From Melioribacteraceae bacterium (GTDB lineage: Bacteria; Bacteroidota; Ignavibacteria; Ignavibacteriales; Melioribacteraceae): DNA of 64,000 nt. This document shows positions 5,912 to 40,700 of this stretch, one piece after another. The notes under the pieces are model-generated. The model made no database searches. It was given only the letters and a program-made list of their open reading frames with translations, and was not told where the DNA came from. Numbering within the stretch: the first letter of the stretch is position 1; each line of letters starts with the position of its first letter. A program made the translations under genes and the position numbers. The stretch is from the NCBI GenBank assembly GCA_030584085.1, contig CP129490.1, positions 963,511 through 1,027,510 of the forward strand, written 5' to 3'.

Positions 5912-7342
5912 ATGAGTGAAATAAGCCTATTAAAAAGGAACTCACTTTATTATTTTATCTCATCACTTGCTCGTCTTGTAGCCAATTCATTAATCTTTAT
6001 TATTATAGCGAGAATTTTTGGGGCTGAAGAGTTTGGTCTCTTCTCAACGGCGCATACATTATCAACATTGTTTTTGCTGCTTGCTGATTTTGGTTTCGAT
6101 ATCCTTATTACTACAGAAATAGCTCGATACAGAAATGATATCAGAAAGATAGTCAGCAAATATTTTCCTATTAAATTCGTCTTTACCCTGGCAGCAGCAA
6201 TCCTTTTAGCAATAACTAATCTTTTGCTGCCAATTCCGGAATCATCAAAAACATTGGTATTTATTTTTCTGTTCAATATGGTTTTTACTTCCTTACTGAA
6301 TCTCTTATTTGCTTTCTTTAGAGGAATTGAGAAATTTAAGTATGAAGCAATTGTTTCATCAATAAGTAATTTTGGATTATTAACTGTTATCGGTGGCTTA
6401 GCTTATTTCCAACAAGATCTTGTCATACTTGCTGTCTCAATGGTCGCGATAAGGTTATTCAGTCTTATCGTAGCCTATACTATATTCAAAAAGAATCTCG
6501 ACAAAATAGTTTTGAACTTTAACTTTGTTAGACTGAGAGTTGAATTTAAGAAGGTAATGATTTTTGGATTTCATCTTCTTTTTGGAACCCTCTTCTTCCA
6601 AATTGATTCAATTCTTATTCTAGCGATTCGAGGAGAATTTGATGCCGGACTTTATCAGGCGGTTTTCAAATTAATGATGATCTCATTAATTATTCCCGAT
6701 GTTCTAGTCGGAGCACTAATGCCAACATTAACCAGGTTATACAGCAATGGTGATCAAAAATGGATGGCAATTAACAAAGTACTATTTAAATGTTTGTATC
6801 TAACTGGTCTTTTAGTAGGCTTTCTATTTTTTTCATATCCCGAATTTATCCTTGACAATATTTATAAGAAGACAGAATTTTTAGATTCAGTATTTATTTT
6901 AAAGTTAGCTGGAATTGTCGTTTTCATACGATACTTTTTCGAATCGTTTGCAGCCTCCCTTACAGTATGTGACAAACAATCTCGAAGAACGATAACCGTT
7001 ATAGTGGCATCTTTTTTAAGTATCAGCTTAAATATTATTTTCTTACCTATTTATGGGATAACTGTGAGTATTGTAATTTCAATAATGGTTAATTTTATTG
7101 CTGGCGTTTTTTATTTAACATTCGTGTCTAAGTCATTTCTGTTGTGGTTCGTTGATCTTAAGTATGTATTCCCTTTGTTGTTAATCGTGTTTTTTTCTAC
7201 ACCATTTTTCAATGAACTAATAAATTCCGAAATAACTAGAATCATAGTCAGTGTCTTTATATTTGTTACACTGACTCTTTTTATTAATTTTAGTGGAAAA
7301 GAGAGACAACTCTTATTCGCTATAAAAGACAATATTGCTTAG
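5912..7342 (+). CDS. Wzx-type oligosaccharide flippase (first of two)
   Basis: 476 aa, almost entirely hydrophobic with about 12-14 predicted membrane helices. It has the N-terminal pattern of the polysaccharide-transport branch of the MATE/MOP superfamily (RNSLYYFISSLARLVANSL, then IFGAEEFGLFSTA). It would flip undecaprenyl-linked repeat units from the cytoplasmic to the periplasmic face. The ATG lies 4 bases after the Wzz-like gene, and the next glycosyltransferase starts immediately after its stop. Assignment to the family is firm; the substrate is unknown. Confidence 0.87.
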   Translation: MSEISLLKRNSLYYFISSLARLVANSLIFIIIARIFGAEEFGLFSTAHTLSTLFLLLADFGFDILITTEIARYRNDIRKIVSKYFPIKFVFTLAAAILLAITNLLLPIPESSKTLVFIFLFNMVFTSLLNLLFAFFRGIEKFKYEAIVSSISNFGLLTVIGGLAYFQQDLVILAVSMVAIRLFSLIVAYTIFKKNLDKIVLNFNFVRLRVEFKKVMIFGFHLLFGTLFFQIDSILILAIRGEFDAGLYQAVFKLMMISLIIPDVLVGALMPTLTRLYSNGDQKWMAINKVLFKCLYLTGLLVGFLFFSYPEFILDNIYKKTEFLDSVFILKLAGIVVFIRYFFESFAASLTVCDKQSRRTITVIVASFLSISLNIIFLPIYGITVSIVISIMVNFIAGVFYLTFVSKSFLLWFVDLKYVFPLLLIVFFSTPFFNELINSEITRIIVSVFIFVTLTLFINFSGKERQLLFAIKDNIA

Positions 7343-28418: not shown

Positions 28419-30143
28419 ATGTTGAAAAGAATTACCTTTTCATTCATCGCAGTTCTTTTAGTTGTTAGTTTGTCTTTCGCTGGAAAAGTTGAACAACACA
28501 AAGCACAAAAAGTAGGTGCTGATCAAGTTGCAACCAACGTAATGCCAGCAAAGAACATGACTAAAGTTTCGGCAAACGTACTTGGTTTCACCGAGTATGA
28601 CTATGCTGGTAACGGAACAGTAAACGAACAAGTTTGGCCATATGATATCGATGGTGACGGAGTTTTAGATCCAGTCGGTACATATATGGAAAGATTTATT
28701 GATAATCAAACAAGAGCTCAAGTAATGTTCTTGGGTCTCGAAGGTGAATTCACAAACCTACCTGCTTCCGATCCTGCATTAACAACCGGTTGGGGAACAA
28801 TCCAATCAATTGATGAAGGTCCATGGGCAGGTCATGCTGCAATCGCTATGCACCAAGGCGGCGCCGGTGTTTGGACAGTTTATAATTTAGCTGATTTCTC
28901 TACAGTATATTTCCATGGTGTAAGTAATGTTGCTCAAAACTTCCCAACATTTGCTTATTTAGCAGATGGTACTATCCCAATGCAATTTACAGATGGTAAT
29001 TTCTATACAACAACAGCTGCTGATCCTTTAACTATTACAGCTCAAGGTCAAGCTGTTGATCCTGCTGCTTCAGAAAACCCTGTAAGAAGATCACCAAACG
29101 GTGAATATCTTGCAGTTGTTGCTGATGACGGTGCTGAATTTGTTTATTTATATACCTCAAATGATGCTGGTGCAACTTGGGTTCAAGAATTAATCGGTGA
29201 ACAAGAAGTATCTCCGATTGTTAACAGACCAGGTTACTTGCCATTATTTGTAAACTTCGGACAAAGAAACTATGCAATTGATAACAATGGTGTTGCTCAC
29301 GTTGGTATGAATGGTTACTCAATCAGAATCGACGGTGCGGACACTACATTTGCATTCCCGGCTCTTTATTGGAATAGCAGAGATAAAGATTGGATCGCAG
29401 TCTCTGATGAAGCTGAAGAAACAGATCAAGATTTAGCTCCATTGAGACAAGGTAACGGCATTGGTAACTCATATCCAAGTCCAACAATCAGCCCAGACGG
29501 TATGGTAGTATCGGTTCTTTATCAAGCACCTGAATATGATGGTGGAACACTACAAATATATCCTGGTGATGGTGGAGCTTCAACTTTCGAATGTTTCCAA
29601 ACTGATATTAAACACACTTATTCGGCAGATGGTGGAAAGACTTTCACTACTCCTGAAAAAGTTGACAGTGAACTCGGCAGATCAGAAAAATTCCCATCAG
29701 CTTATGACTATTTAACAAATAATGGTATTGAATACACAGTAAGATATGCATTCTTTGTTGATGACGTACCTGGTGTTTCTTTATTCGGTTACAACAGTGC
29801 TTCGGATGGTGGTTACTGGAATTATTCAGAAATTACATTTACAGCAGAAACAAGTGTTGCTGATGATGACGTTTTGGTAAACACATTCTCATTGCAACAA
29901 AACTATCCTAACCCATTCAACCCAAGTACAACTATTAAATATAGTGTACCTCAATTGTCAGATGTATCAGTTAAGGTTTATGACGTACTTGGAAAAGAAG
30001 TTGCAACTTTAGTAGATGCTCAGCAAGCACAAGGCGTTTATGAAGTTAACTTTAATGCTGCTAACTTAGCTTCAGGTATGTATATCTATACAATCCAAGC
30101 AGGCAGCTTTACAAGCTCAAAGAAAATGTTATTAATGAAGTAA
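28419..30143 (+). CDS. Secreted protein with type IX secretion C-terminal sorting domain
   Basis: 574 aa. A signal peptide spans residues 1-21 (ITFSFIAVLLVVSLSFA). The central part has repeated blade-like segments with an early DIDGDGVLD calcium-type loop near residue 76; no enzyme family is recognised. The last 85 or so residues are a type A sorting domain: NYPNPFNPSTTIKYSVP, VKVYDVLGKEVATL, then a SGMYIYTI segment and the final KKMLLMK. Such proteins cross the outer membrane through the type IX system. A ribosome site AAGGGG and a long leader suggest strong expression, and the codon use looks biased toward an abundant product. Confidence 0.85.
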   Translation: MLKRITFSFIAVLLVVSLSFAGKVEQHKAQKVGADQVATNVMPAKNMTKVSANVLGFTEYDYAGNGTVNEQVWPYDIDGDGVLDPVGTYMERFIDNQTRAQVMFLGLEGEFTNLPASDPALTTGWGTIQSIDEGPWAGHAAIAMHQGGAGVWTVYNLADFSTVYFHGVSNVAQNFPTFAYLADGTIPMQFTDGNFYTTTAADPLTITAQGQAVDPAASENPVRRSPNGEYLAVVADDGAEFVYLYTSNDAGATWVQELIGEQEVSPIVNRPGYLPLFVNFGQRNYAIDNNGVAHVGMNGYSIRIDGADTTFAFPALYWNSRDKDWIAVSDEAEETDQDLAPLRQGNGIGNSYPSPTISPDGMVVSVLYQAPEYDGGTLQIYPGDGGASTFECFQTDIKHTYSADGGKTFTTPEKVDSELGRSEKFPSAYDYLTNNGIEYTVRYAFFVDDVPGVSLFGYNSASDGGYWNYSEITFTAETSVADDDVLVNTFSLQQNYPNPFNPSTTIKYSVPQLSDVSVKVYDVLGKEVATLVDAQQAQGVYEVNFNAANLASGMYIYTIQAGSFTSSKKMLLMK

Positions 30144-30159
30144 TATTAAACTATCCCTC

Positions 30160-30184
30160 GGAATCCCGGTTTAGCCGGGATTCC
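30160..30184 (+). terminator. GC-rich hairpin after the type IX cargo gene
   Basis: GGAATCCCGG (30160-30169) and CCGGGATTCC (30175-30184) form a perfect 10-base stem with a 5-base loop, 16 bases after the stop. It is the most GC-rich spot nearby. No clear T-run follows, so it may stabilise the 3' end or end transcription with help. Confidence 0.55.
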
Positions 30185-30323
30185 CGGGAGCTATTCTGAT
30201 GTTATTGAAATTTCTGTTATATCATAAATTGATATTTAGGTCTCGTTTATTTGCTTATCGCATTCCATTGGACTGTTCTAGCTATCTGCAGCGGATTTCC
30301 AAAAATTATTTATAGGAGAACTT

Positions 30324-33152
30324 ATGGAAGGGGTTTTTACAAAATTTAAAATATTTGTTTTCGTCTTGCTTTTTGGCGTGACAAGTATTTTTGCCCAATC
30401 TGGTTCCGGTAAACTTGCCGGACAAATCACCGATGCGGCAACCGGTGAACCTTTGATTGGTGCAAACATTATTATTGAAAACACAAACTTGGGTGCCGCA
30501 ACCGATATCGACGGTAATTATTTTATCCTCAATATCACACCGGGTACTTATACGGTAAAAATTAGTTACGTAGGTTACAGCTCTAAAACAATACAAGAAG
30601 TTCGTGTTGTTGCCGGTATTACTTATGAACTTAATGAAACTTTAACAAGCGGTCTTAACTTAGACGAAATAGTTGTAACCGATAAAAAATTCTTTGAGGA
30701 AAAATCGACTAACACTGTTAAAGTTGTTGACTCCGATCAAATTGCGAAATTACCTGTACGTGGTGTTTCCAACATTGCTTCCTTGCAATCAGGTGTTGTA
30801 ATTCAAGAAGGTAGCGGCGGTGTTGAAGGAAACGCTACTATCAACGTACGCGGTGGTCGTGGATCCGAAGTACTTTATATTGTTGACGGTGTTCCTCAAA
30901 ACAACTTGATCACCGGAACAACAGTTGGTTCGGTTTCTAATAACGCGATCGAACAGTTATCTTTCCAAGTTGGTGGTTACGAAGCTAAATACGGTCAAGC
31001 TCAATCAGGTATTATAAATGTAACAACAAAGGGCGGTGATCCGGCTTATAAAATTTTCATGGAAGGTATTACATCTTCATTCTTTGATGATTACGGATAC
31101 AATCTGTATTCTGCTAGTATTAGCGGTCCGATTATTCCCGGACTTAGAGATCATACAATTTTTGCTTCTATTGAACGCGGTTGGTTCGCTGATGCTGACC
31201 CTCGCGCTAAAGGATGGGATTTTGCATCTATTGGTGAAACATATGAAACGACTCCAAATAACGATAAAGGATTGTGGAGATTCTCCGCAAGAACTACTCA
31301 CTTAATGGGTGACTGGAAAGTTAACTTAGGTGTTGTCGGAAATATGGATACCGATAGATTAGTTACTACTGCTTATGTAAAAAATAGTTCTCAGTTCTTC
31401 GATAAAACTTATACAGATAACATTTCTTTTAGCGGTCGTATTTCTCAAACCGTCAGTTCAAATACTTTCTGGAATTTGAACTTCGGTTATAGAATGTATG
31501 ACTTTAAGAGAGTCAATCCATTCTTCGAAGATGATTTATTAGCTTATGGAGACAGCACACGTTGGGCGAATGAACTCGGCGTAACTCTATTAGCTGATGG
31601 TCAAAGAACACCAGCCACAGACGAAATTGGTATTTTTGCACCACGAGGTAGAGCTCAAGGTTTATTCCAAAGAAGAGAACAAGATGCTATTACAGCCGAT
31701 TTTGATTTTACATCACAGATCGATAACCACTTATTAGAATTTGGTGGTGGTATTTCGATGAACACGGTTAGAGGTTACGGAGCTTTTGCTTACCTTGCTG
31801 CCGGTCAAACCGGAACTTTTGAAGAAAAAATGGCTGCTCTTGAACCATATGTATTCGGTTATGATGTTACCGGTCTAAATCATGTTGATGATGATTTTGC
31901 AGTTGAAAGACAAAGACCAAGAAATCCGTTCTTAGCTTATGCTTATGTACAAGATAGATTTGAGTTGGAAGATTTAGTTCTTAATCTTGGTTTAAGAATG
32001 GACTATTTTGATGTAAAATCTTATGTTCTTGTTGACCCGACAAAACCATATGCCGGTGGAACCGATCCACTCGGATTTGATGATGGTGACTTTAAGATAA
32101 GAGATGCTGATCTTGAATTTTCACCTCGTATTGGTATTGGTTTCCCTGTAACAGAAACTACAGTTTTTCACGCTCAGTATGGTCGCTTTATCCAGTTACC
32201 AAGACTATTAGATCTTTATGCTGGTCCTTATGACTATAACAATTACATTGTTATGGAACCACAAGGCAGCTTTAATGCCGATCTTAAACCTGAAGAAACT
32301 GTTCAATATGAAATTGGTTTCAGACAATTATTAGGTGACAACGCTGCGTTAAATATCACAGCATTCTATAAAAATATTAAAGGATTGGTAAACGTTCAAA
32401 ACCTACAATTTCAGCGTTCAGACGGTGGCGAATTATTGAATGCAATAGTTCCTCAAAATGCTGACTTTGGTACAACAAAAGGATTCGCGTTTTCATTTGA
32501 TATAACAAGATTGAGTTACTTCAGTGTTTCGGCTCAATATACTTTCTCAATTGCTGAAGGAACCGGTTCTTCAACCGCATCTAGCCAAACAGCAGTATTT
32601 AGAAATACTGACAGACAAGCTCCTATAGTAATTGCTCCTCTTGATTTTGATCAAAGACACACAGGTATTGTAAATATCGATTTCTTTGTTCCAAAAGGTG
32701 AGCTTGGTTTCTTTGAATTATTTAATGCTAACTTCTTATTATCATTCAATAGCGGAAGACCTTATACTCCACTCGATTTCTTTGATATTTTATCAGGAAA
32801 TAACGGTGGTCCTTCTACAACAGGTTATGTAAATTCAAGATTCGGTCCATCTCAATTTAGAGTTGACATGAGATTGGAAAAAGCGTTTGAATTTGCAGGT
32901 ATAAGATTATCTCCTTACTTGTGGGTGCAAAACTTGTTTGATGTTGATAACGTTACAAACGTATGGCGATCAACAGGTGATCCATTGACAACCGGCTTTT
33001 TGAATACCGAAACCGGTAGAGCAGTTGCACAACAAAGAGGTCAAGGTTACGTAGATGATTATAAAGCGTTGGAAAGAACCCCCTTTAATTTTGGTATTCC
33101 AAGATTAATCAGATTGGGTCTCAAAATTAATTTTGATACTGCAGGTTTATAA
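30324..33152 (+). CDS. TonB-dependent receptor with carboxypeptidase-like N-terminal domain
   Basis: 942 aa outer-membrane receptor. A signal peptide (residues 1-24) is followed by a carboxypeptidase-regulatory-like beta-sandwich (KLAGQITDAATGEPLIGANI to ISYVGY, about residues 29-95). The plug domain follows (TINVRGGRGSEVLYIVDGVP, VGGYEAKYGQAQSGIINVTTKGG), then a long beta-barrel with repeated aromatic strands. It imports a bulky ligand using TonB energy, or acts with secreted proteins. AGGAGA precedes the ATG. Placement next to a type IX cargo and a PorV-like gene suggests a joint envelope role; the ligand is unknown. Confidence 0.93.
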   Translation: MEGVFTKFKIFVFVLLFGVTSIFAQSGSGKLAGQITDAATGEPLIGANIIIENTNLGAATDIDGNYFILNITPGTYTVKISYVGYSSKTIQEVRVVAGITYELNETLTSGLNLDEIVVTDKKFFEEKSTNTVKVVDSDQIAKLPVRGVSNIASLQSGVVIQEGSGGVEGNATINVRGGRGSEVLYIVDGVPQNNLITGTTVGSVSNNAIEQLSFQVGGYEAKYGQAQSGIINVTTKGGDPAYKIFMEGITSSFFDDYGYNLYSASISGPIIPGLRDHTIFASIERGWFADADPRAKGWDFASIGETYETTPNNDKGLWRFSARTTHLMGDWKVNLGVVGNMDTDRLVTTAYVKNSSQFFDKTYTDNISFSGRISQTVSSNTFWNLNFGYRMYDFKRVNPFFEDDLLAYGDSTRWANELGVTLLADGQRTPATDEIGIFAPRGRAQGLFQRREQDAITADFDFTSQIDNHLLEFGGGISMNTVRGYGAFAYLAAGQTGTFEEKMAALEPYVFGYDVTGLNHVDDDFAVERQRPRNPFLAYAYVQDRFELEDLVLNLGLRMDYFDVKSYVLVDPTKPYAGGTDPLGFDDGDFKIRDADLEFSPRIGIGFPVTETTVFHAQYGRFIQLPRLLDLYAGPYDYNNYIVMEPQGSFNADLKPEETVQYEIGFRQLLGDNAALNITAFYKNIKGLVNVQNLQFQRSDGGELLNAIVPQNADFGTTKGFAFSFDITRLSYFSVSAQYTFSIAEGTGSSTASSQTAVFRNTDRQAPIVIAPLDFDQRHTGIVNIDFFVPKGELGFFELFNANFLLSFNSGRPYTPLDFFDILSGNNGGPSTTGYVNSRFGPSQFRVDMRLEKAFEFAGIRLSPYLWVQNLFDVDNVTNVWRSTGDPLTTGFLNTETGRAVAQQRGQGYVDDYKALERTPFNFGIPRLIRLGLKINFDTAGL

Positions 33153-33197
33153 TAGAAAATAGATGGGGTATTCTAAAAATTAAATAGGGTAATAGAT

Positions 33198-36100
33198 ATG
33201 AAAAATAGAGTATTTAAAATATTTCTCTTCGTCTTTGTGCTGCTCTTCGCTTTTGGATCTGTGATTCAAGCAGCTGACGACGTAAGAGGAAGTAAAAAGG
33301 TAAGCACGGTTTATAAGGTTACCTCCACTCTTGATGGAGGACCTAAGGGAGACGCTTACGCAATGAATATCAACAATATTTATCTCCCTTATAACAGAAA
33401 AGGTATTATTGCAGATGTAAACGTACCTCCTTTTGGCTCATTAGGTAAATACCCGAATGCCAATGGTAACGGTTTCTTATTTTCATCAGGCTTTTTCTTA
33501 AGTGGTTATAAAGACGGTCAACTTTGGGCAAATGCTGTTGCTTCTGCCTCGTTGGTTGAAGATTATTTACAAGGTACTGTTGCCGATGGTGCTACAGATT
33601 CCAGAGCTCAAATTTATGTAGTTAAAGAATCCGACCCTGCTTTTGGAGCTGCTTGGCAAGCATGGAAAGATGCTGTTGACATAGGTGCAGATTTTTATGA
33701 CGGCGACGGCGATGGTGTTTATAATCCCGTTGATAAAAATGGAAATGGTGAATGGGATCCGGACGAAGACAGACCTGACTTAATTGGTGATGAAACCGGT
33801 TGGACTGTCTACAATGATGCGATTCCGAAATCACAACGAAGATGGAATACGGTTGATCCGTTAGGTATTGAAGTTAAACAAAGTATTTTTGGATTTGCTT
33901 CTGCCGGTGCGATCGGTAATATCATATTTATCAGATACAGATTTACATACGTTGGGTTAAGTCCAAATGATCCTGAAGTATTAAATGATGTTTATTTTGG
34001 TGTTTGGGCTGATCCTGATCTTGGTGATCATAATGATGACCTTGTAGGTGTTGACGTTCCTAGAAACGCGGGTTATGTATATAATAGCGCAGCGGGTCCT
34101 GACCTTCAATGGGGATCTAACCCTCCGGTATTTATGATCGACTTTTTCTCCGGTCCAATAGATTATATTCCCGGCGAAACATTCCAAGATGTTGATGGTG
34201 ATGGAATTTATACTGATGGAATTGATGTGCCATTAGATACTGCTTACAGTGTTCAGGGACAAGTTAAAGGAAAAGTTGCTTATCCGGGTGCAAAAAACCT
34301 TGGTATTTCATCATTTGTGCATTATCAGCAAAGTGATCCTTTCTTAGGTGATCCTAATAATGCTATCGAAGCAAGAAATTACATGCTTGGTACAAGCAGA
34401 ACGGGTGAATTCTTAGATCCTTGTAATTGGACTTTGGGTGAAGTTATGGGGTCGGTTGATTGTGCAACAGTTGATAACCGATTCTGGTATAGCGGTGATC
34501 CTGTTACAAAACAAGGGTGGATTAACACTAATCCGACAGATCAACGCCAAATGCAAAATACAGGTCCTTTTGAATTAGTAAGAGGCGAAGAAAAAGAAAT
34601 TCTCGTAGCTTACGTTGTTGGTCAAGGAAGTGATGCACTATCTTCAATTACTGAAGCAAGAAGAATTGATGATGGTGCTCAGTTTGTGTTTGATCAAAAT
34701 TTCTTATCACCTGCTCCTCCTCCGGCTGCTTCGGTTACAGTTGAAGCAAGTGATGACTTTATAGATTTAATCTGGGAAACACCAAGTCAGGTTGGATATA
34801 AAAATCTAACTGACGCATATGACCTTTATTTTGAAGGCTATAACGTTTGGAGTTTCAGAACCAGAACAACACAAGATGTTATTGCAAATAGAACAAATAA
34901 ACAATTATTTAAACGATATACCCTTGATAACAATATAGAAGATGTTTATAAAGAAAACCCAAATACGGGCGGTATTGAGTTATTGTATGAGGAAGGTTCT
35001 ACTTTATTAAATGCTACAACTTATACTGATGCTCAAACCGGTAGAATCCGTTTACGAGTTACTCAAGACCCATGGTCAGGCGGTGCACTTGTAAAGGGTA
35101 AACCATATTATTTTGCAGTTACTTCTTATGCGCTTAACTACAAAGCATTAGTAAATAAAGAAACCGGAGTACCTGGTTTAGCGGGAAAAGGCGATTACTA
35201 TTTAATGTCTAACGCTTTCGTTGGTGAAGTTGAAAATATTCCGAGAATTGTTGAAGCTGTTGTCGGTGAAAATATTTACAGACCACCGGTATTAGCGGTT
35301 GATGCAAATTACAGCGGTGCAAAAACAAACTTTAACGGTGCATTAGCTTATGATGTTGTTGATAAGGATAATTTGACAGGTGATACTTATAAAGTCGATT
35401 TCTTTGTTGATACTGAGGCAGTATTGGATACAATGTATGTTCCTTACTGGAAATTGACAAATGAAAACACCGGTCAAGTTCTTATAGATTCTTCAAAATT
35501 ATATTCTTATGGTAGTGATCAAATTGATTATGTTTCAACCGAAGGATTTATTACGAGAATTTCTTCTGAAAAAGCAACTTTAGGTCCTCTTGTTGATAAT
35601 TCAGCTACATCATGGATTTCGAGCAATACAGAAGCATTATATGTTTCTCCGGATTTAGGTGCTCAATCACGAAGTATTGTATCACTTCCGGGCCCTATAA
35701 GTTCAAGAAAGGGATCATATATTCAAGCGGATAAATTGCGTCAGGTTGAACTAAGATTTGGCGGCGGCGGTGGTAAAGCATACCGTTATCTTAATGGTTA
35801 TGTTGGTAGTATTGTTAGTAAGAATAACTCATTCGTTTATGCGGAAGGCGTTCCGGCAGATCCGACTATTGGAAAGCCGGGTGAAGGTTTTGTCGATGTA
35901 CCATTTACAGCTTGGGTTAAAGATCCTGTATTTGGTGAAGAAAGACAGCTTGCAGTAGGTTTCATTGAAAGAGCTCCGTCAGCAACAGGCGGTGGTAACC
36001 CAGATGGTGAATGGAATCCTGGAACTAACATCTCTCAAACTGCCGAGTTTATTCTTGTATTTAATGCTGATTATGATCCGAACGGAAATCAACAAATTTA

Positions 36101-36743
36101 TAAAGGATTCGACGATGGATCCGGAAGCATGGTTTGGGCTGATTTAAGAGGCGGAACAAGTTATAATATTCCAGCAACTGCGATTGGTGCAACCGAAGAT
36201 GATAGACTGAAAGCTGCTTCTACTTTCTTTGATGCGCTTTATGTCTTCAGAGTAGAATTTGCTTCTGATTCAGTTTCTTATAGCGATGGTGATATTCTAA
36301 CAAAAACTGTTACGAACTATCCATATACATCAGCTGATAGTTACACCTTTAAAACAAATGCTCAAGGCGCTTTAAGTAGTGCTCAAGAAAAAGAATTATT
36401 CGATAAAGTTAATGTATTCCCGAACCCATTATTTGGTTATAACCCGGCAACAAGCTGGACGGGTAATGTTAACAATCCGGATGAACCTTTTGTAACTTTC
36501 TCAAATTTACCTGAGGATATTACGATCAAGATCTATTCATTGTCTGGACAATTATTAAGATCTCTTAACACTGATGATAAAGACTCGCCAACTTCACCAT
36601 ATCTACGGTGGGATTTATTGAACGAAGATGGATTAAGAGTGGCATCCGGACTGTATTTAGCTATTGTATCTTCGCCTAAGTATGGAGATAAAGTGCTTAA
36701 GTTCTCGATCATTATGCCGCAGAAACAAATACAAAAGTACTAA
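33198..36743 (+). CDS. Large secreted protein with type IX-like C-terminal domain
   Basis: 1181 aa. A signal peptide lies at about residues 1-26 (IFLFVFVLLFAFGSVIQAA). Acidic DxDxDG loops that resemble calcium-binding or dockerin-like sites occur near residue 168 (DGDGDGVYNPVDKNGNGEWD) and in the DVDGDGIYTDG segment. A fibronectin-like region follows in the middle (ASVTVEASDDFIDLIWETP). The end has the sorting-domain layout (VFPNPLFGYNP, ITIKIYSLSGQLLRSL, ASGLYLAIV, KVLKFSIIMP), with a few extra residues at the tip. No catalytic family is recognised. It lies between the TonB receptor (45 bases) and the PorV-like gene (50 bases). Confidence 0.82.
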   Translation: MKNRVFKIFLFVFVLLFAFGSVIQAADDVRGSKKVSTVYKVTSTLDGGPKGDAYAMNINNIYLPYNRKGIIADVNVPPFGSLGKYPNANGNGFLFSSGFFLSGYKDGQLWANAVASASLVEDYLQGTVADGATDSRAQIYVVKESDPAFGAAWQAWKDAVDIGADFYDGDGDGVYNPVDKNGNGEWDPDEDRPDLIGDETGWTVYNDAIPKSQRRWNTVDPLGIEVKQSIFGFASAGAIGNIIFIRYRFTYVGLSPNDPEVLNDVYFGVWADPDLGDHNDDLVGVDVPRNAGYVYNSAAGPDLQWGSNPPVFMIDFFSGPIDYIPGETFQDVDGDGIYTDGIDVPLDTAYSVQGQVKGKVAYPGAKNLGISSFVHYQQSDPFLGDPNNAIEARNYMLGTSRTGEFLDPCNWTLGEVMGSVDCATVDNRFWYSGDPVTKQGWINTNPTDQRQMQNTGPFELVRGEEKEILVAYVVGQGSDALSSITEARRIDDGAQFVFDQNFLSPAPPPAASVTVEASDDFIDLIWETPSQVGYKNLTDAYDLYFEGYNVWSFRTRTTQDVIANRTNKQLFKRYTLDNNIEDVYKENPNTGGIELLYEEGSTLLNATTYTDAQTGRIRLRVTQDPWSGGALVKGKPYYFAVTSYALNYKALVNKETGVPGLAGKGDYYLMSNAFVGEVENIPRIVEAVVGENIYRPPVLAVDANYSGAKTNFNGALAYDVVDKDNLTGDTYKVDFFVDTEAVLDTMYVPYWKLTNENTGQVLIDSSKLYSYGSDQIDYVSTEGFITRISSEKATLGPLVDNSATSWISSNTEALYVSPDLGAQSRSIVSLPGPISSRKGSYIQADKLRQVELRFGGGGGKAYRYLNGYVGSIVSKNNSFVYAEGVPADPTIGKPGEGFVDVPFTAWVKDPVFGEERQLAVGFIERAPSATGGGNPDGEWNPGTNISQTAEFILVFNADYDPNGNQQIYKGFDDGSGSMVWADLRGGTSYNIPATAIGATEDDRLKAASTFFDALYVFRVEFASDSVSYSDGDILTKTVTNYPYTSADSYTFKTNAQGALSSAQEKELFDKVNVFPNPLFGYNPATSWTGNVNNPDEPFVTFSNLPEDITIKIYSLSGQLLRSLNTDDKDSPTSPYLRWDLLNEDGLRVASGLYLAIVSSPKYGDKVLKFSIIMPQKQIQKY

Positions 36744-36793
36744 CGGATAATAAAATGAAATCGAATAATTTCTAATTTTTAGGAGTTTGTAAA

Positions 36794-37810
36794 ATGAAAA
36801 GATTATTAATAATATTTACTGTACTAATCTTTAGCTTTTCGCTCTATGCAGGCGATGCAGCTAGAAAGGGTACAACAGGCGCTGAGCAATTGCTTGTTCC
36901 GGTTGGTGCTAGGGGAATTGCAACTGGCGGCTCCATGCTTGCTACTCTTACTGGATTAGAGTCAATTTACTATAACCCGGCAGGGTTAGCTCGGCATGAT
37001 GGTGCTGAAGCTATGTTTAGCTACATGTCTTATCTCGCGGATATAAATGTATCATATTTTGCCGCATCCGCTAATTTAGGTGATTTCGGTTCAATGGCTC
37101 TTAGCTTCAAAACATTCGATTTTGGAGATATTCCTGTTACAACCGTTAACTTACCTGATGGAACCGGTGAGACTTATTCACCTACATTCTTAACAGTAGG
37201 TTTAACTTATTCTAAAATAGTTACCGATCGTATTTCTGTTGGTGCCAATTTCAAATTAATCACTGAAGAAATTGTGAACACTACTGCTTCAGGTTTTGCA
37301 GTAGACTTTGGTGTTCAATATAGATTTAGTGAATCATTGTTCTTAGGCGCTTCAGTTAAAAACATTGGTTCTAACATGACCTACTCCGGTTCTGACTTAC
37401 AACAGTCGACTGAAATTCCTGGTACATCGCCGGGAAGTAAAACCGGTTTGTTGGAAGTTGTAGCGGAAGAATTTCAAATTCCATCATATTTTGAGTTAAG
37501 TTTAGCTTATAAATATGACTTCAACGAACAAAATAGATTGATTGTTGCTTCAACATTTACTAATAATAATTCGTTTGAAGATAATCTGAGCTTAGGCTTA
37601 GAATATGGATTCATGAATACTTTCTTCTTACGTGGCGGATATAGCTTCTTAACAGAAAATAGTGATGAATCTGTTTTTGGATTCACAGCCGGTGCCGGTG
37701 TTAACTATGATTTCGCTGGCGAATTAGGCATTGCTGTTGATTACGCTTTCCGCGATGTTAAAGAATTTCCAGAACCTAATCACATATTTACAGTTAAATT
37801 AGGCTTCTAA
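36794..37810 (+). CDS. PorV/PorQ-family outer-membrane protein
   Basis: 338 aa. A signal peptide (residues 1-19, cleavage near YAG) leads to the conserved family start GAEQLLVPVGARGIATGGS followed by GLESIYYNPAGLA, the FadL-like PorV/PorQ signature. The rest is a beta-barrel. In Bacteroidota PorV brings cargo to the type IX attachment complex, and paralogues serve individual cargoes. The location after a sorting-domain protein supports this. It is followed by a strong terminator, which closes the envelope block. Confidence 0.88.
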   Translation: MKRLLIIFTVLIFSFSLYAGDAARKGTTGAEQLLVPVGARGIATGGSMLATLTGLESIYYNPAGLARHDGAEAMFSYMSYLADINVSYFAASANLGDFGSMALSFKTFDFGDIPVTTVNLPDGTGETYSPTFLTVGLTYSKIVTDRISVGANFKLITEEIVNTTASGFAVDFGVQYRFSESLFLGASVKNIGSNMTYSGSDLQQSTEIPGTSPGSKTGLLEVVAEEFQIPSYFELSLAYKYDFNEQNRLIVASTFTNNNSFEDNLSLGLEYGFMNTFFLRGGYSFLTENSDESVFGFTAGAGVNYDFAGELGIAVDYAFRDVKEFPEPNHIFTVKLGF

Positions 37811-37830: not shown

Positions 37831-37875
37831 AAAAGCGCTTGCTGTTTAACAGTAAGCGCTTTTTTAATTTTTTAT
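37831..37875 (+). terminator. Strong intrinsic terminator after the PorV-like gene
   Basis: AAAAGCGCTTGCTGT (37831-37845) pairs with ACAGTAAGCGCTTTT (37849-37863), 14 of 15 positions, with a 3-base loop and a T-rich tail (TTTTTAATTTTTT). Confidence 0.92.
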
Positions 37876-37897: not shown

Positions 37898-39271
37898 ATG
37901 AGGGGGATTAGATTTTGTAAATATTTTTGTCTGCTATTTCTTTTTACATTTTCGTTATTTGGGCAAAATAATTTTGAATATGATTATGCCAGATTTTATA
38001 ACCCAGCGGATGGTTCAAGCTATGTTGAGTTATATTATTCGTTTGTAAGATCTGCTCTAAGTACAGTTTCAACGGAGGACAAAAACGTTAGTCAAGGCAA
38101 ATTAGCAGTTAAGATTATTGATAAAAGAGATAATCAAATAGTATTTAATAATATGTGGCAATTGGATATTGAAAATTCGACCACGGATGATGATAAATTA
38201 CTGGTTGGTTTGTTGGATTTTCCTTTACCTGAATCTGAGTATTTGTTTGATATCTCGGCAGAGGATCTGAATAACCCTGAATTTAATTTTAACTCTTCTT
38301 TTGATATTTCTGTTACTCCGTTTCCAGAATCTAGCATTGTCGTGAGTGATATTCAGCTTGCTACCGCAATAATTCCACAATCACAAAACACCGAATCTAT
38401 TTTTTACAAAAACTCGATAGAAATTACTCCTAATCCAAGTTTAATTTATGGGGATAGTAATCCTGTGCTCTTCTTTTATTCGGAAATTTATGGACTATCA
38501 AGCGGGGCAGTAAATAATTTTATTATTGAGCAAAAATTATTTGATGCAACAAACACAATGGTTCATGATAAACAGAGAAAAATTTCCAATGAGCATTCTT
38601 CAGTTGTTGAGGTGGGCGCAATAAAAGTAAATGAATTAAATAGTGGAATATACACTTTAGTCATAAGTATTCGAGATGATTTGAACATGGTTTCGGCAAA
38701 CTCAACTAAAAAAGTTTTTATTTACAATAGAGATCGAGTTGATGAAAGCACTAACTTTGCCGAAAGTCAAAAGTCGATGTTAGAATCTGAATTAATGATA
38801 ATGAGTGATGATGAAATTGATTATATGTATGAGACAGCTGTCTATATTGCCACTGAAGCCGAGAAGCAACAATGGAAAAAACTTTCGGATTATGATGCGA
38901 AAAGAAAATTTTTAAGTTCATTTTGGGAAAAACGAGATTCCGATCCAACTACAGAAATTAATGAATATAAAAGAGATTATTATGAGAGGGTGGCTTATGC
39001 GAATAAAAACTATGGTAATGTGAGCCGTAAAGAAGGTTGGAAAACCGATAGGGGAAGGGTATATATAACATACGGTGCACCCGGTGAAATCGAGAGATTC
39101 CAAAATGAATATTACTCGCAACCTTATGAAATTTGGCAATATTATAATTTAGATGGTGGAGTTATCTTTCTTTTTGCTGATGAACAAAGTCTAAATATAT
39201 ACAAACTCGTACACTCTACAAAAAAAGGTGAAATTTATAATTACAATCAATATTTAAAATACGTGCAATAA
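37898..39271 (+). CDS. GWxTD domain-containing secreted protein (first of tandem pair)
   Basis: 457 aa. A signal peptide spans residues 1-25 (LLFLFTFSLFG-Q). The defining motif GWKTD is at residues 380-384 inside the typical C-terminal domain (KFLSSFWEKRDSDP, YERVAYANKNYG, RGRVYITYGAPGEIE, PYEIWQYY). GWxTD proteins are widespread in Bacteroidota/Acidobacteriota-like bacteria, and their function is unknown. An N-terminal beta-rich region binds no recognised ligand. The paralogue follows after a terminator. Confidence 0.88.
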   Translation: MRGIRFCKYFCLLFLFTFSLFGQNNFEYDYARFYNPADGSSYVELYYSFVRSALSTVSTEDKNVSQGKLAVKIIDKRDNQIVFNNMWQLDIENSTTDDDKLLVGLLDFPLPESEYLFDISAEDLNNPEFNFNSSFDISVTPFPESSIVVSDIQLATAIIPQSQNTESIFYKNSIEITPNPSLIYGDSNPVLFFYSEIYGLSSGAVNNFIIEQKLFDATNTMVHDKQRKISNEHSSVVEVGAIKVNELNSGIYTLVISIRDDLNMVSANSTKKVFIYNRDRVDESTNFAESQKSMLESELMIMSDDEIDYMYETAVYIATEAEKQQWKKLSDYDAKRKFLSSFWEKRDSDPTTEINEYKRDYYERVAYANKNYGNVSRKEGWKTDRGRVYITYGAPGEIERFQNEYYSQPYEIWQYYNLDGGVIFLFADEQSLNIYKLVHSTKKGEIYNYNQYLKYVQ

Positions 39272-39294
39272 ATAAGTTTGTTTAATAATTGAAT

Positions 39295-39330
39295 AAAAAG
39301 AATTATCATGTAGGTGATAATTCTTTTTTT
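39295..39330 (+). terminator. Hairpin and T-run ending at the next start codon
   Basis: A perfect 14-base stem (AAAAAGAATTATCA at 39295-39308, TGATAATTCTTTTT at 39315-39328) with a 6-base loop and an uninterrupted run of eight Ts (39324-39331). It lies between the two GWxTD genes; the downstream ATG is at 39333, leaving no room for a normal ribosome site. Confidence 0.85.
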
Positions 39331-39332
39331 TT

Positions 39333-40700
39333 ATGAAAAATGTCTTAAAAAATATTACACTTTTTCTCTTCTTCTGTACTATTGTTTTTTCTCAACATCA
39401 GTACGAGTTTGATTACGATTATGCGCAGTTCAGGAACAGCGATTCAACTAATATTTTTGAAGTCTATTATGAATTTAATTCCGAGAATCTGGTAAAGAAT
39501 TATCTGTATAATGATTCTACCATTATCCTTAATATTATTTTTTCACTATCGAAGAATCAAAATTCAGATGAGATTTTGTCGGACACTGTTTATAATAGCT
39601 TCAAACTAAACGAGCTTTTAACCGGCGATGGTTATAGAGATATAATCGGTGTAAAAAAATTAGTAGTTCCATCCGGTTACTATGACATGTTTATTTATTT
39701 CCAAAATAGTAACAAAATCCTTGAACAGATAGTTAATACATCAATATTGACAAAGAAATATGGCACATCGAACCCAACACTAAGTGATATCCAATTAGCA
39801 AGATCAATAAAAAAAGATTCTTCATCAGTAGAAAGTTTGTTTTCCAAAAATACTCTACGAATAATACCAAATCCATCTACAACTTATTCAAGTGATCTGC
39901 CTTTGCTGAAGTATTATGCTGAATTATATAATATTGCTGACGAAGATAGTTTAACTTTATCAACTTACCTCGTTTCGGGTGACTCAAAAGTTGTATTCTC
40001 AAATTCCAAAACAATTTCTTCAAATTTTGAATCAATTGCCCACATTGATCAAATCAATTTGTTGAAATACCCGACCGGTGTATATACTCTTCAATTGATT
40101 TTTAGTTCAGCTTCGAAGGAGTATGCATTTGTCAGTCAAAAACAATTCTATTTTTATAATAAATTTTACACTGTTAATTCTATTGAAGGAACTTCAGATC
40201 AAGTTTTACAAAAAGAATCTCCCTTCTCATATTTTTCAGCAGAAGAATGTGATGAAGTATTTAATCAAGCCCGATACATCGCCACTAGTAAAGAAATCGA
40301 GAGATATGAGTCGATATCTTCAGCGGAAGGCAAACGTGAATTTCTTACAAGGTTTTGGGAATCAAAGAATACTACCGGTTCCGAAAATAAAATTTCATAT
40401 GAAGAATATATGAACCGAGTTGACAAAGCCAATAGCAAATTTAGGGGCTTGAGTGCAAATGGGTATAGTACCGAGCGGGGAAGAGTTTTCATAAAATATG
40501 GTGAGCCTAATAAAGTTGAACAATTTCCAAACGAATCCAATTTAAGACCTTATGAAATTTGGTACTACGATACACTTGAAGGGGGTGTAGTGTTCATTTT
40601 CGGAGATTTGAATGGATTTGGTGATTATGATCTTATTCATTCAACTAAACGAGGCGAAATATTTGACGATACTTGGCAAAGAAGATTATACATTTATTAA
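39333..40700 (+). CDS. GWxTD-like secreted protein (second, diverged paralogue)
   Basis: 455 aa. A signal peptide lies at residues 1-20 (ITLFLFFCTIVFS-Q), so the ATG at 39333 is the right start even though it directly follows a terminator T-run with no Shine-Dalgarno. The domain matches the upstream gene (EFLTRFWES, RVDKANSKFRG, RGRVFIKYGEPNKVEQF, PYEIWYYDTLEGGVVFIFGD, LIHSTKRGEIF), but the namesake motif reads GYSTE (residues 377-381) in place of GWKTD. Clear tandem duplication with divergence. The acyltransferase gene begins two bases after its stop. Confidence 0.84.
   Translation: MKNVLKNITLFLFFCTIVFSQHQYEFDYDYAQFRNSDSTNIFEVYYEFNSENLVKNYLYNDSTIILNIIFSLSKNQNSDEILSDTVYNSFKLNELLTGDGYRDIIGVKKLVVPSGYYDMFIYFQNSNKILEQIVNTSILTKKYGTSNPTLSDIQLARSIKKDSSSVESLFSKNTLRIIPNPSTTYSSDLPLLKYYAELYNIADEDSLTLSTYLVSGDSKVVFSNSKTISSNFESIAHIDQINLLKYPTGVYTLQLIFSSASKEYAFVSQKQFYFYNKFYTVNSIEGTSDQVLQKESPFSYFSAEECDEVFNQARYIATSKEIERYESISSAEGKREFLTRFWESKNTTGSENKISYEEYMNRVDKANSKFRGLSANGYSTERGRVFIKYGEPNKVEQFPNESNLRPYEIWYYDTLEGGVVFIFGDLNGFGDYDLIHSTKRGEIFDDTWQRRLYIY

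Follow-up and report, generated by a model that had tools for sequence, protein, structure and literature searches.

A conserved three-gene unit of a TonB-dependent receptor, a protein with a PorZ-like C-terminal tail and a PorV/PorQ-family barrel in a Melioribacteraceae bacterium

Introduction

In the SusC–SusD, RagA–RagB and BtuB–BtuG pairs, a TonB-dependent receptor (TBDR) works with a dedicated surface partner. The partners in those pairs are lipoproteins; in the locus described here, a protein exported by the type IX secretion system (T9SS), with an outer-membrane barrel as its proposed holder, would take their place. The locus lies at positions 28,419 to 37,810 of a stretch of 64,000 nucleotides, hereafter the window, from the genome of a Melioribacteraceae bacterium (GCA_030584085.1, contig CP129490.1, positions 963,511 to 1,027,510), and its three genes encode a TBDR, an 1181-residue protein named protein C and a barrel of the PorV/PorQ family. 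No description of such a unit was found in the titles and abstract openings listed for open-access PMC papers on PorV paralogues, on PorV- or PorQ-like barrels, on TBDRs with PorV, and on the T9SS of Ignavibacteria or Marinimicrobia.

The closest described system is the PorZ–PorQ/PorU–PorV attachment complex of Porphyromonas gingivalis, in which a PorV/PorQ-family barrel holds a T9SS-exported protein by its uncleaved tail, as is proposed here for C. PorZ, PorU and PorA are named as T9SS proteins retaining their tails in the accessible text of PMC5562754, PMC11285876 and PMC10202324, and PorZ is anchored by PorQ and PorU held by PorV in that of PMC5562754. Among PDB entries, the tail of PorZ is the closest to that of C by sequence and by fold; the body of C is a different one, however, and its genetic link is to a TBDR, not to a sortase. 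For type B tails, cognate barrels of the PorP/SprF kind are described in PMC12618676 and PMC9143113, and in the SprB–SprF and PG1035–PorP pairs a barrel gene likewise stands beside one T9SS substrate, with a proposed anchorage at the surface. Here the tail class and the barrel family are different, the linked barrel scoring 18.6 bits with the PorP/SprF model (cut-off 90.55). In the β-barrel assembly machinery (BAM) of Bacteroidota, the FadL-family barrel BamG anchors the large extracellular protein BamH (PMC12611786, partial text); BamH is a lipoprotein within BAM, and the linked barrel reached 23.3 bits with the BamG model (cut-off 250).

Organisation of the locus

The conserved unit consists of three genes, TBDR–C–barrel, and their linkage is established. 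The original prediction had described four genes in a row, closed by one strong terminator, as a possible dedicated type IX secretion unit. All four open reading frames were confirmed at their coordinates on the plus strand, as were the terminator and the calcium-type loops of the 1181-residue protein (DGDGVYNPVDKNGNGEWDPDED, around residues 168–198). The host genome is a single contig of 3.74 Mb. The features of the locus are the following.

30324–33152, plus strand: TBDR, 942 aa, with an N-terminal CarboxypepD_reg domain, plug and barrel
33198–36743, plus strand: protein C, 1181 aa, with a signal-peptide-like start, a predicted super-β-sandwich, an FN3-like domain, a beta-rich part and a PorZ-like tail
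33327–34709, plus strand: body of C, residues 44–504, predicted super-β-sandwich (VIA-align 2 fold match)
33699–33791, plus strand: calcium-type acidic loops of C, residues 168–198 (sequence, conservation)
34710–35282, plus strand: FN3-like domain of C, residues about 505–695 (VIA-align 2)
36384–36743, plus strand: PorZ/PorU-like C-terminal domain of C (profile and predicted fold)
36794–37810, plus strand: PorV/PorQ-family outer-membrane barrel, 338 aa (NF033709, 182.5 bits), proposed dedicated holder of C
37831–37863, plus strand: intrinsic terminator, 15-bp stem followed by a T-run
28419–30143, plus strand: gene 1, 574-aa protein with a type A sorting tail (TIGR04183, 48.7 bits, cut-off 23), a neighbour and non-member

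The intergenic gaps are 180 bp between gene 1 and the TBDR, 45 bp between the TBDR and C, and 50 bp between C and the barrel. In relatives, TBDR–C–barrel is found at this position too, flanked by thioredoxin/serA and by GWxTD genes, and the scattering that would have refuted the original prediction was not seen among the three genes. The position of gene 1 is taken by varied sorting-tail proteins, sometimes by a homologue along the greater part of its length, or by nothing (L094, L095, L097); gene 1, whose tail is of the F+5 kind, was thus rejected as a member. A terminator stands immediately behind the barrel in 27/27 loci, the window's own counted, against 1/54 junctions inside the unit, these other junctions serving as the comparison of a scan made with no shuffled control. 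The stem sequences vary from genome to genome, and a terminator-like site occurs up to 220 bp upstream of the TBDR in 8/27 loci. The predicted four-gene unit was therefore reduced to the TBDR, C and the barrel, tied by position, terminator and co-divergence, with gene 1 outside.

Distribution of the unit

The co-occurrence of the families, which had been proposed as a check, was confirmed for the three genes. In a six-frame search of four partly overlapping locus sets, complete TBDR–C–barrel units were found around 123 of 141 C genes with a PorZ-like tail: 35 of 39 outside the order (40 loci, each from a different genome, taken from the 47 genomes with a match), 26 of 32 within the order (32 loci), 51 of 59 among 78 named loci (among the matches listed) and 11 of 11 in 16 loci of the G059 family of Marinimicrobia (SAR406). 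The overlap arises where the genome search retrieved a genome that is also a named record. The named loci were collected with two short patterns, and since one of these lies inside the tail, this set is enriched for PorZ-like tails. The phylum set was searched with a profile built mostly from members of the trio, and C was present at E ≤ 1e-60 in 71/247 genomes of the phylum sample. Among the matches listed, the unit was present in named loci of Ignavibacteria, KSB1, Marinimicrobia, Latescibacterota, Handelsmanbacteria and others, the closest named record to C being 72% identical and from an Ignavibacteria assembly.

With both sides of the C gene visible, the unit was absent in 1, 3, 5 and 0 cases (outside-order, order, named and SAR406 sets), and in these both neighbours were missing, never one; some of the remaining incomplete units are cut by the end of a contig or locus. 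Pieces of C without a called tail were excluded from these counts (1, 3, 5 and 3, in the same order); one of those in the SAR406 set adjoins a TBDR and no barrel.

A natural control was provided by relatives with a C-like body and an ordinary type A tail. Among the matches listed for the named loci, 0/29 of them had a linked TBDR and 0/29 a linked barrel, both sides being visible in 21. With an earlier greedy gene caller, 69/82 complete units were obtained and an adjoining barrel was found in 0/36 controls, 7 of which had no called tail.

The host genome also carries four tandem C-body proteins whose tails are of the ordinary type A and beside which no barrel is linked (L064:5224-14501; G000:C1:2894223-2903500), and cargo paralogues of this kind occur in other named loci too. 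From L076:9536 to L077:5374 (G049), four C proteins are encoded one after another, and the first alone is flanked by a TBDR and a barrel, a local expansion of C.

Co-divergence and module types

In 26 loci of the order, mutual correlations of r 0.935–0.970 were obtained between the distances of C, of the TBDR and of the barrel, against r 0.05–0.32 with thioredoxin, serA and one downstream gene and 0.40–0.44 with the GWxTD gene (11–24 usable loci per control gene). The partial r of the trio was 0.92–0.97, and 0/999 permutations were as high. Within type 1 modules alone, the partial r was 0.60–0.88 and the correlation with the flanks 0.17–0.39 (10–15 loci). The tightest co-divergence is that of the TBDR with C (r 0.96–0.97; 0.78–0.87 within type 1). 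Chance neighbourhood of the three genes was rejected on the grounds of recurrence, control and co-divergence.

Two types of module occupy the same locus. The identity between types is 0.27 for C, 0.32 for the TBDR and 0.42 for the barrel, and 0.65 for thioredoxin; mean identities within types are 0.47/0.43, 0.57/0.50, 0.59/0.53 and 0.67/0.69, respectively (serA has a single type 2 row in this comparison). The low identity between types is seen in the trio and not in thioredoxin, and therefore the three genes switch as a set. The host genome has a type 2 set elsewhere, the C and barrel of which both best match type 2 relatives.

The C-terminal tail of protein C

The tail of C obtained 17.4 bits with TIGR04183, below the cut-off of 23, yet its predicted fold belongs to the Ig-like type A class. 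The PorZ model (NF052228) matched the tail only, with 25.4 bits against a cut-off of 260; C was thus rejected as a PorZ, and a separate true PorZ exists in the genome (G000:C1:2293299-2295542, 351.8 bits), whose tail is the first match of the tail profile outside linked modules. When a profile of 47 C tails was compared with PDB sequences, the matches were PorZ (5m11, E 2.2e-4), PorU (6za2, E 0.0068) and FlgD (E 0.15). The predicted tail fold matched PorZ with Z 9.9 over 90 residues, PorU with 8.2 over 89 and the cleaved tail of RemA with 7.5 over 75, the last two being a tie by the rule of the tool. The PorZ model was matched at E ≤ 0.1 by 26/27 C proteins and TIGR04183 by 22/27. The W+10 spacing of PorZ is shared by 120/133 linked-type tails. 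C ends about ten residues past the usual type A end (36700–36743), and 40/47 C tails close on an aromatic residue, some of these ends being match ends and not stop codons.

The linked barrel and the secretion system of the host

The linked barrel exceeded the cut-off of 90 of the PorV/PorQ family model NF033709 and stayed below those of the PorV equivalog NF033710 (74.3 bits, cut-off 250) and the PorQ equivalog NF033711 (94.6 bits, cut-off 220). In 11/11 linked barrels scored (that of the window, eight others from Ignavibacteria and two from SAR406), the PorQ score was higher than the PorV score and below the PorQ cut-off. Of the 43 barrels placed in a tree, 33 are linked to C-type proteins; these formed one group (100/98), with long outgroup branches, separate from PorV, PorQ, PorV2, stand-alone SAR406 barrels and four other module barrels of the host genome.

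The host genome has ten PorV-family genes over the cut-off, its own PorV (261.6 bits) and PorQ (263.2 bits) lying elsewhere, together with a gene resembling PorV2 (238.3 bits against a cut-off of 325). SprA, PorU, PorV, PorQ and PorZ were all over their cut-offs, as in an organism with a T9SS, and about 130 other sorting tails are present. The idea of a separate type IX secretion unit was consequently given up, as one ordinary system is present; the expression 'surface machine' used for the locus was judged fair.

Further modules of a TBDR, a PorZ-like-tailed protein and a PorV/PorQ-family barrel were observed in the host genome (L050, L051, L052 and L054). Their tailed proteins have weak or no similarity to the body of C, and that of L050 is four genes away from the barrel.

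Body of protein C and the receptor

No Pfam match was obtained for C at E ≤ 1. A hydrophobic N-terminal stretch was read as a signal peptide, and no lipobox pattern was found in C. The predicted models had a mean pLDDT (predicted local distance difference test) of 84.9 for the whole protein and 87.5 for residues 505–1181. Residues 44–504 matched known structures with VIA-align 2 Z scores of 14.6–20.4 over 214–275 residues (best 50 rows), which corresponds to the super-β-sandwich, the type of N-domain of GH15/65/94/116 enzymes; the catalytic barrel of these enzymes is absent from C. The FN3-like domain had Z of about 7.4–8.9, partly under the telling level of 8 of the tool, and for the beta-rich part at residues about 700–1060 no fold match was obtained in a search that barely covered it. 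Across 47 sequences, residues D168, G173, Y175, D191 and D198 of the loops are conserved to at least 90%. When viral structures were compared, the only resemblances were of the FN3, tail-protein and sorting-tail kinds and were of no use. The predicted body would fit a partner of the TBDR that handles carbohydrates at the surface, which is a matter of fold and does not show function.

The TBDR matched PF07715 (44.6 bits, cut-off 23.9), PF00593 (96.1 bits, cut-off 27) and, over its cut-off, PF13715, and stayed below the cut-off of the SusC/RagA model TIGR04056 (92.6 bits, cut-off 368). SusD had no match among the six window proteins scanned. A crude TonB-box pattern, present in 9/29 TBDRs, was not used as evidence, nor was a promoter scan (63 found, 50.8 expected).

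A lineage without detectable sortase

The G059 family comprises 24 genomes of 0.4–1.0 Mb (loci L143, L173, L174 and L176–L195). PorU over the cut-off was found in 0/24 of them, with tail matches only, SprA in 19/24 and the PorV family in 22/24. A lower-scoring PorV-family gene lies 106–137 bp behind the C match in 15/15 genomes showing that gene, and SprA is present in 13 of these 15 genomes with a C-linked barrel. The family keeps the unit although no sortase was detected in it. The C profile, counting tails as well, had at most four matches per genome, except in G093, where a broken C was counted in pieces; these tail counts come from the C profile only. A search for PorZ in three genomes of the family gave no match at E ≤ 1e-8. 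In G059 itself, other tailed proteins have matches to choice-of-anchor B/J and PKD and a weak one to an M43-like peptidase.

Proposed mechanism and alternative explanations

We consider it moderately probable that the locus encodes a TonB-dependent uptake complex, in which C is exported by the T9SS and held permanently, with its tail uncleaved, by the dedicated barrel beside the TBDR. The TBDR, C and the barrel would then form one outer-membrane complex. C, having no lipid anchor, would cross the outer membrane through the ordinary type IX translocon (SprA); its tail, of the PorZ/PorU kind, would escape cleavage by the sortase PorU and be bound one-to-one by its own PorV/PorQ-family barrel, and in this way C would be fixed on the surface. 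There it may adjoin the TBDR as a surface partner for substrate capture or as a lid, a role like that of SusD or BtuG in Bacteroidia, and the substrate may be a glycan or other polymer, judging only from the super-β-sandwich fold. The unit would thus work on the PorZ–PorQ principle, yet C cannot be counted as a PorZ, and the barrel reaches the cut-off of neither PorQ nor PorV. The suggestion that the PorV paralogue serves its adjoining cargo was retained for C, with which, as with the TBDR, the barrel is tied; gene 1 was not included.

The barrel might alternatively be a dedicated shuttle taking C from SprA to PorU, where the tail would be cleaved and C left free or linked to lipopolysaccharide. 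PorV is a shuttle according to the available part of PMC5562754, the linked barrel is of the PorV family, and the host genome has both PorU and PorZ. Nearness to PorQ, moreover, is not special to linked barrels. We nevertheless regard this explanation as unlikely: the tail of C is of the uncleaved PorZ/PorU kind, and the unit is kept in SAR406 genomes without detectable PorU. A barrel nearer to PorQ together with a tail like the uncleaved ones of PorZ and PorU is therefore better understood as a dedicated holder of a single protein than as a multi-cargo shuttle. The barrel could also hold a C that is an adhesin or structural protein, the TBDR being only a regulator or a co-inherited neighbour, with no uptake complex. 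Adhesins often have FN3-like and calcium-type elements, both of which are present in C. This explanation appears improbable, because in the four locus sets no C–barrel pair with both flanks visible lacks the TBDR, which co-diverges most tightly with C. The least probable of the explanations, and in our view a distant one, is an old operon under shared regulation in which C is handled by the canonical PorV and the barrel has another job, e.g. FadL-like hydrophobic uptake. PorV is described as a FadL homologue in the accessible portion of PMC12578637, and regulation can preserve operons; however, the ordinary-tail relatives with a C-like body lack the barrel (29/29), and similar tails on bodies weakly or not similar to C are also found near such barrels elsewhere in the genome. 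Within 10 kb of a PorV-family gene (the ten over the cut-off) lay 7/7 C-type tails (at least 54 bits, six loci) against 14/129 others (Fisher p 8e-7), and within 500 bp 4/7 against 1/129; 4/7 of these C-type tails belong to proteins whose bodies resemble that of C weakly or not at all.

Several observations weigh against the proposed holding of C in an uptake complex. The distance limits of this proximity test were picked after the positions had been seen, a circular shift gave a weaker result than the Fisher test (254/100000 at 10 kb, 10/100000 at 500 bp), and 3/7 C-type tails sit 6.5–9.8 kb from the barrel. Modules L050 and L055 of this genome depart from the TBDR–C–barrel order, and the linked barrel is missing from nine C genes that have a PorZ-like tail and visible flanks on either side. 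The linked barrel of L050 is nearly neutral (PorQ 87.6 bits, PorV 86.2 bits), and the PorQ score is also the higher one in L057, in both genes of L056 and in L058, the last of which had no PorV match at the threshold used; nearness to PorQ, shared by other non-canonical members, was rejected as a specific mark of linked barrels. Likewise, the W+10 spacing (PorZ/PorU-type) was rejected as an exclusive mark of linked tails, since 18/125 ordinary tails carry it. The extra hairpin of PorU and PorZ tails is functionally not relevant according to the text available of PMC11285876, and according to a 2025 paper (PMC12618676) PorV handles every type A tail. The super-β-sandwich indicates a fold, not a function. 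Finally, the SAR406 genomes are incomplete, and the absence of PorU rests on the 24 genomes jointly; incompleteness alone hardly explains it, because SprA remains in 19 of them.

Other features of the window and contig

Two GWxTD-domain proteins are encoded beyond the terminator of the unit (window positions 37898–40700), and a GWxTD gene follows the unit in 24/26 loci of the order. Sorting-tail matches of equal score at 6389–6655 and 3737805–3738071, at the contig ends, suggest a circular chromosome with an overlap of about 11 kb.

Implications

It is possible, if doubtful at present, that throughout the Fibrobacteres–Chlorobi–Bacteroidetes (FCB) group the T9SS builds TBDR uptake complexes in which the uncleaved PorZ-type tail of the surface partner sits permanently in a PorQ-like barrel of its own, an equivalent of SusCD without lipid anchors, that the streamlined marine SAR406 keep the translocon without the sortase for a few surface proteins, and that holding may predate release by the sortase. 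If so, type A-like tails would not all be handled by one canonical PorV. If the proposed holding of C is correct, the pairing of substrate and barrel would extend from type B to PorZ-like type A tails, which would help to explain the ten PorV-family genes of the host genome. The SAR406 genomes without detectable sortase make a T9SS working by holding alone testable. On the same condition as for the pairing, the unit would offer phyla outside Bacteroidia a T9SS-based way to do what SusCD does, namely to position a surface partner at a TBDR.

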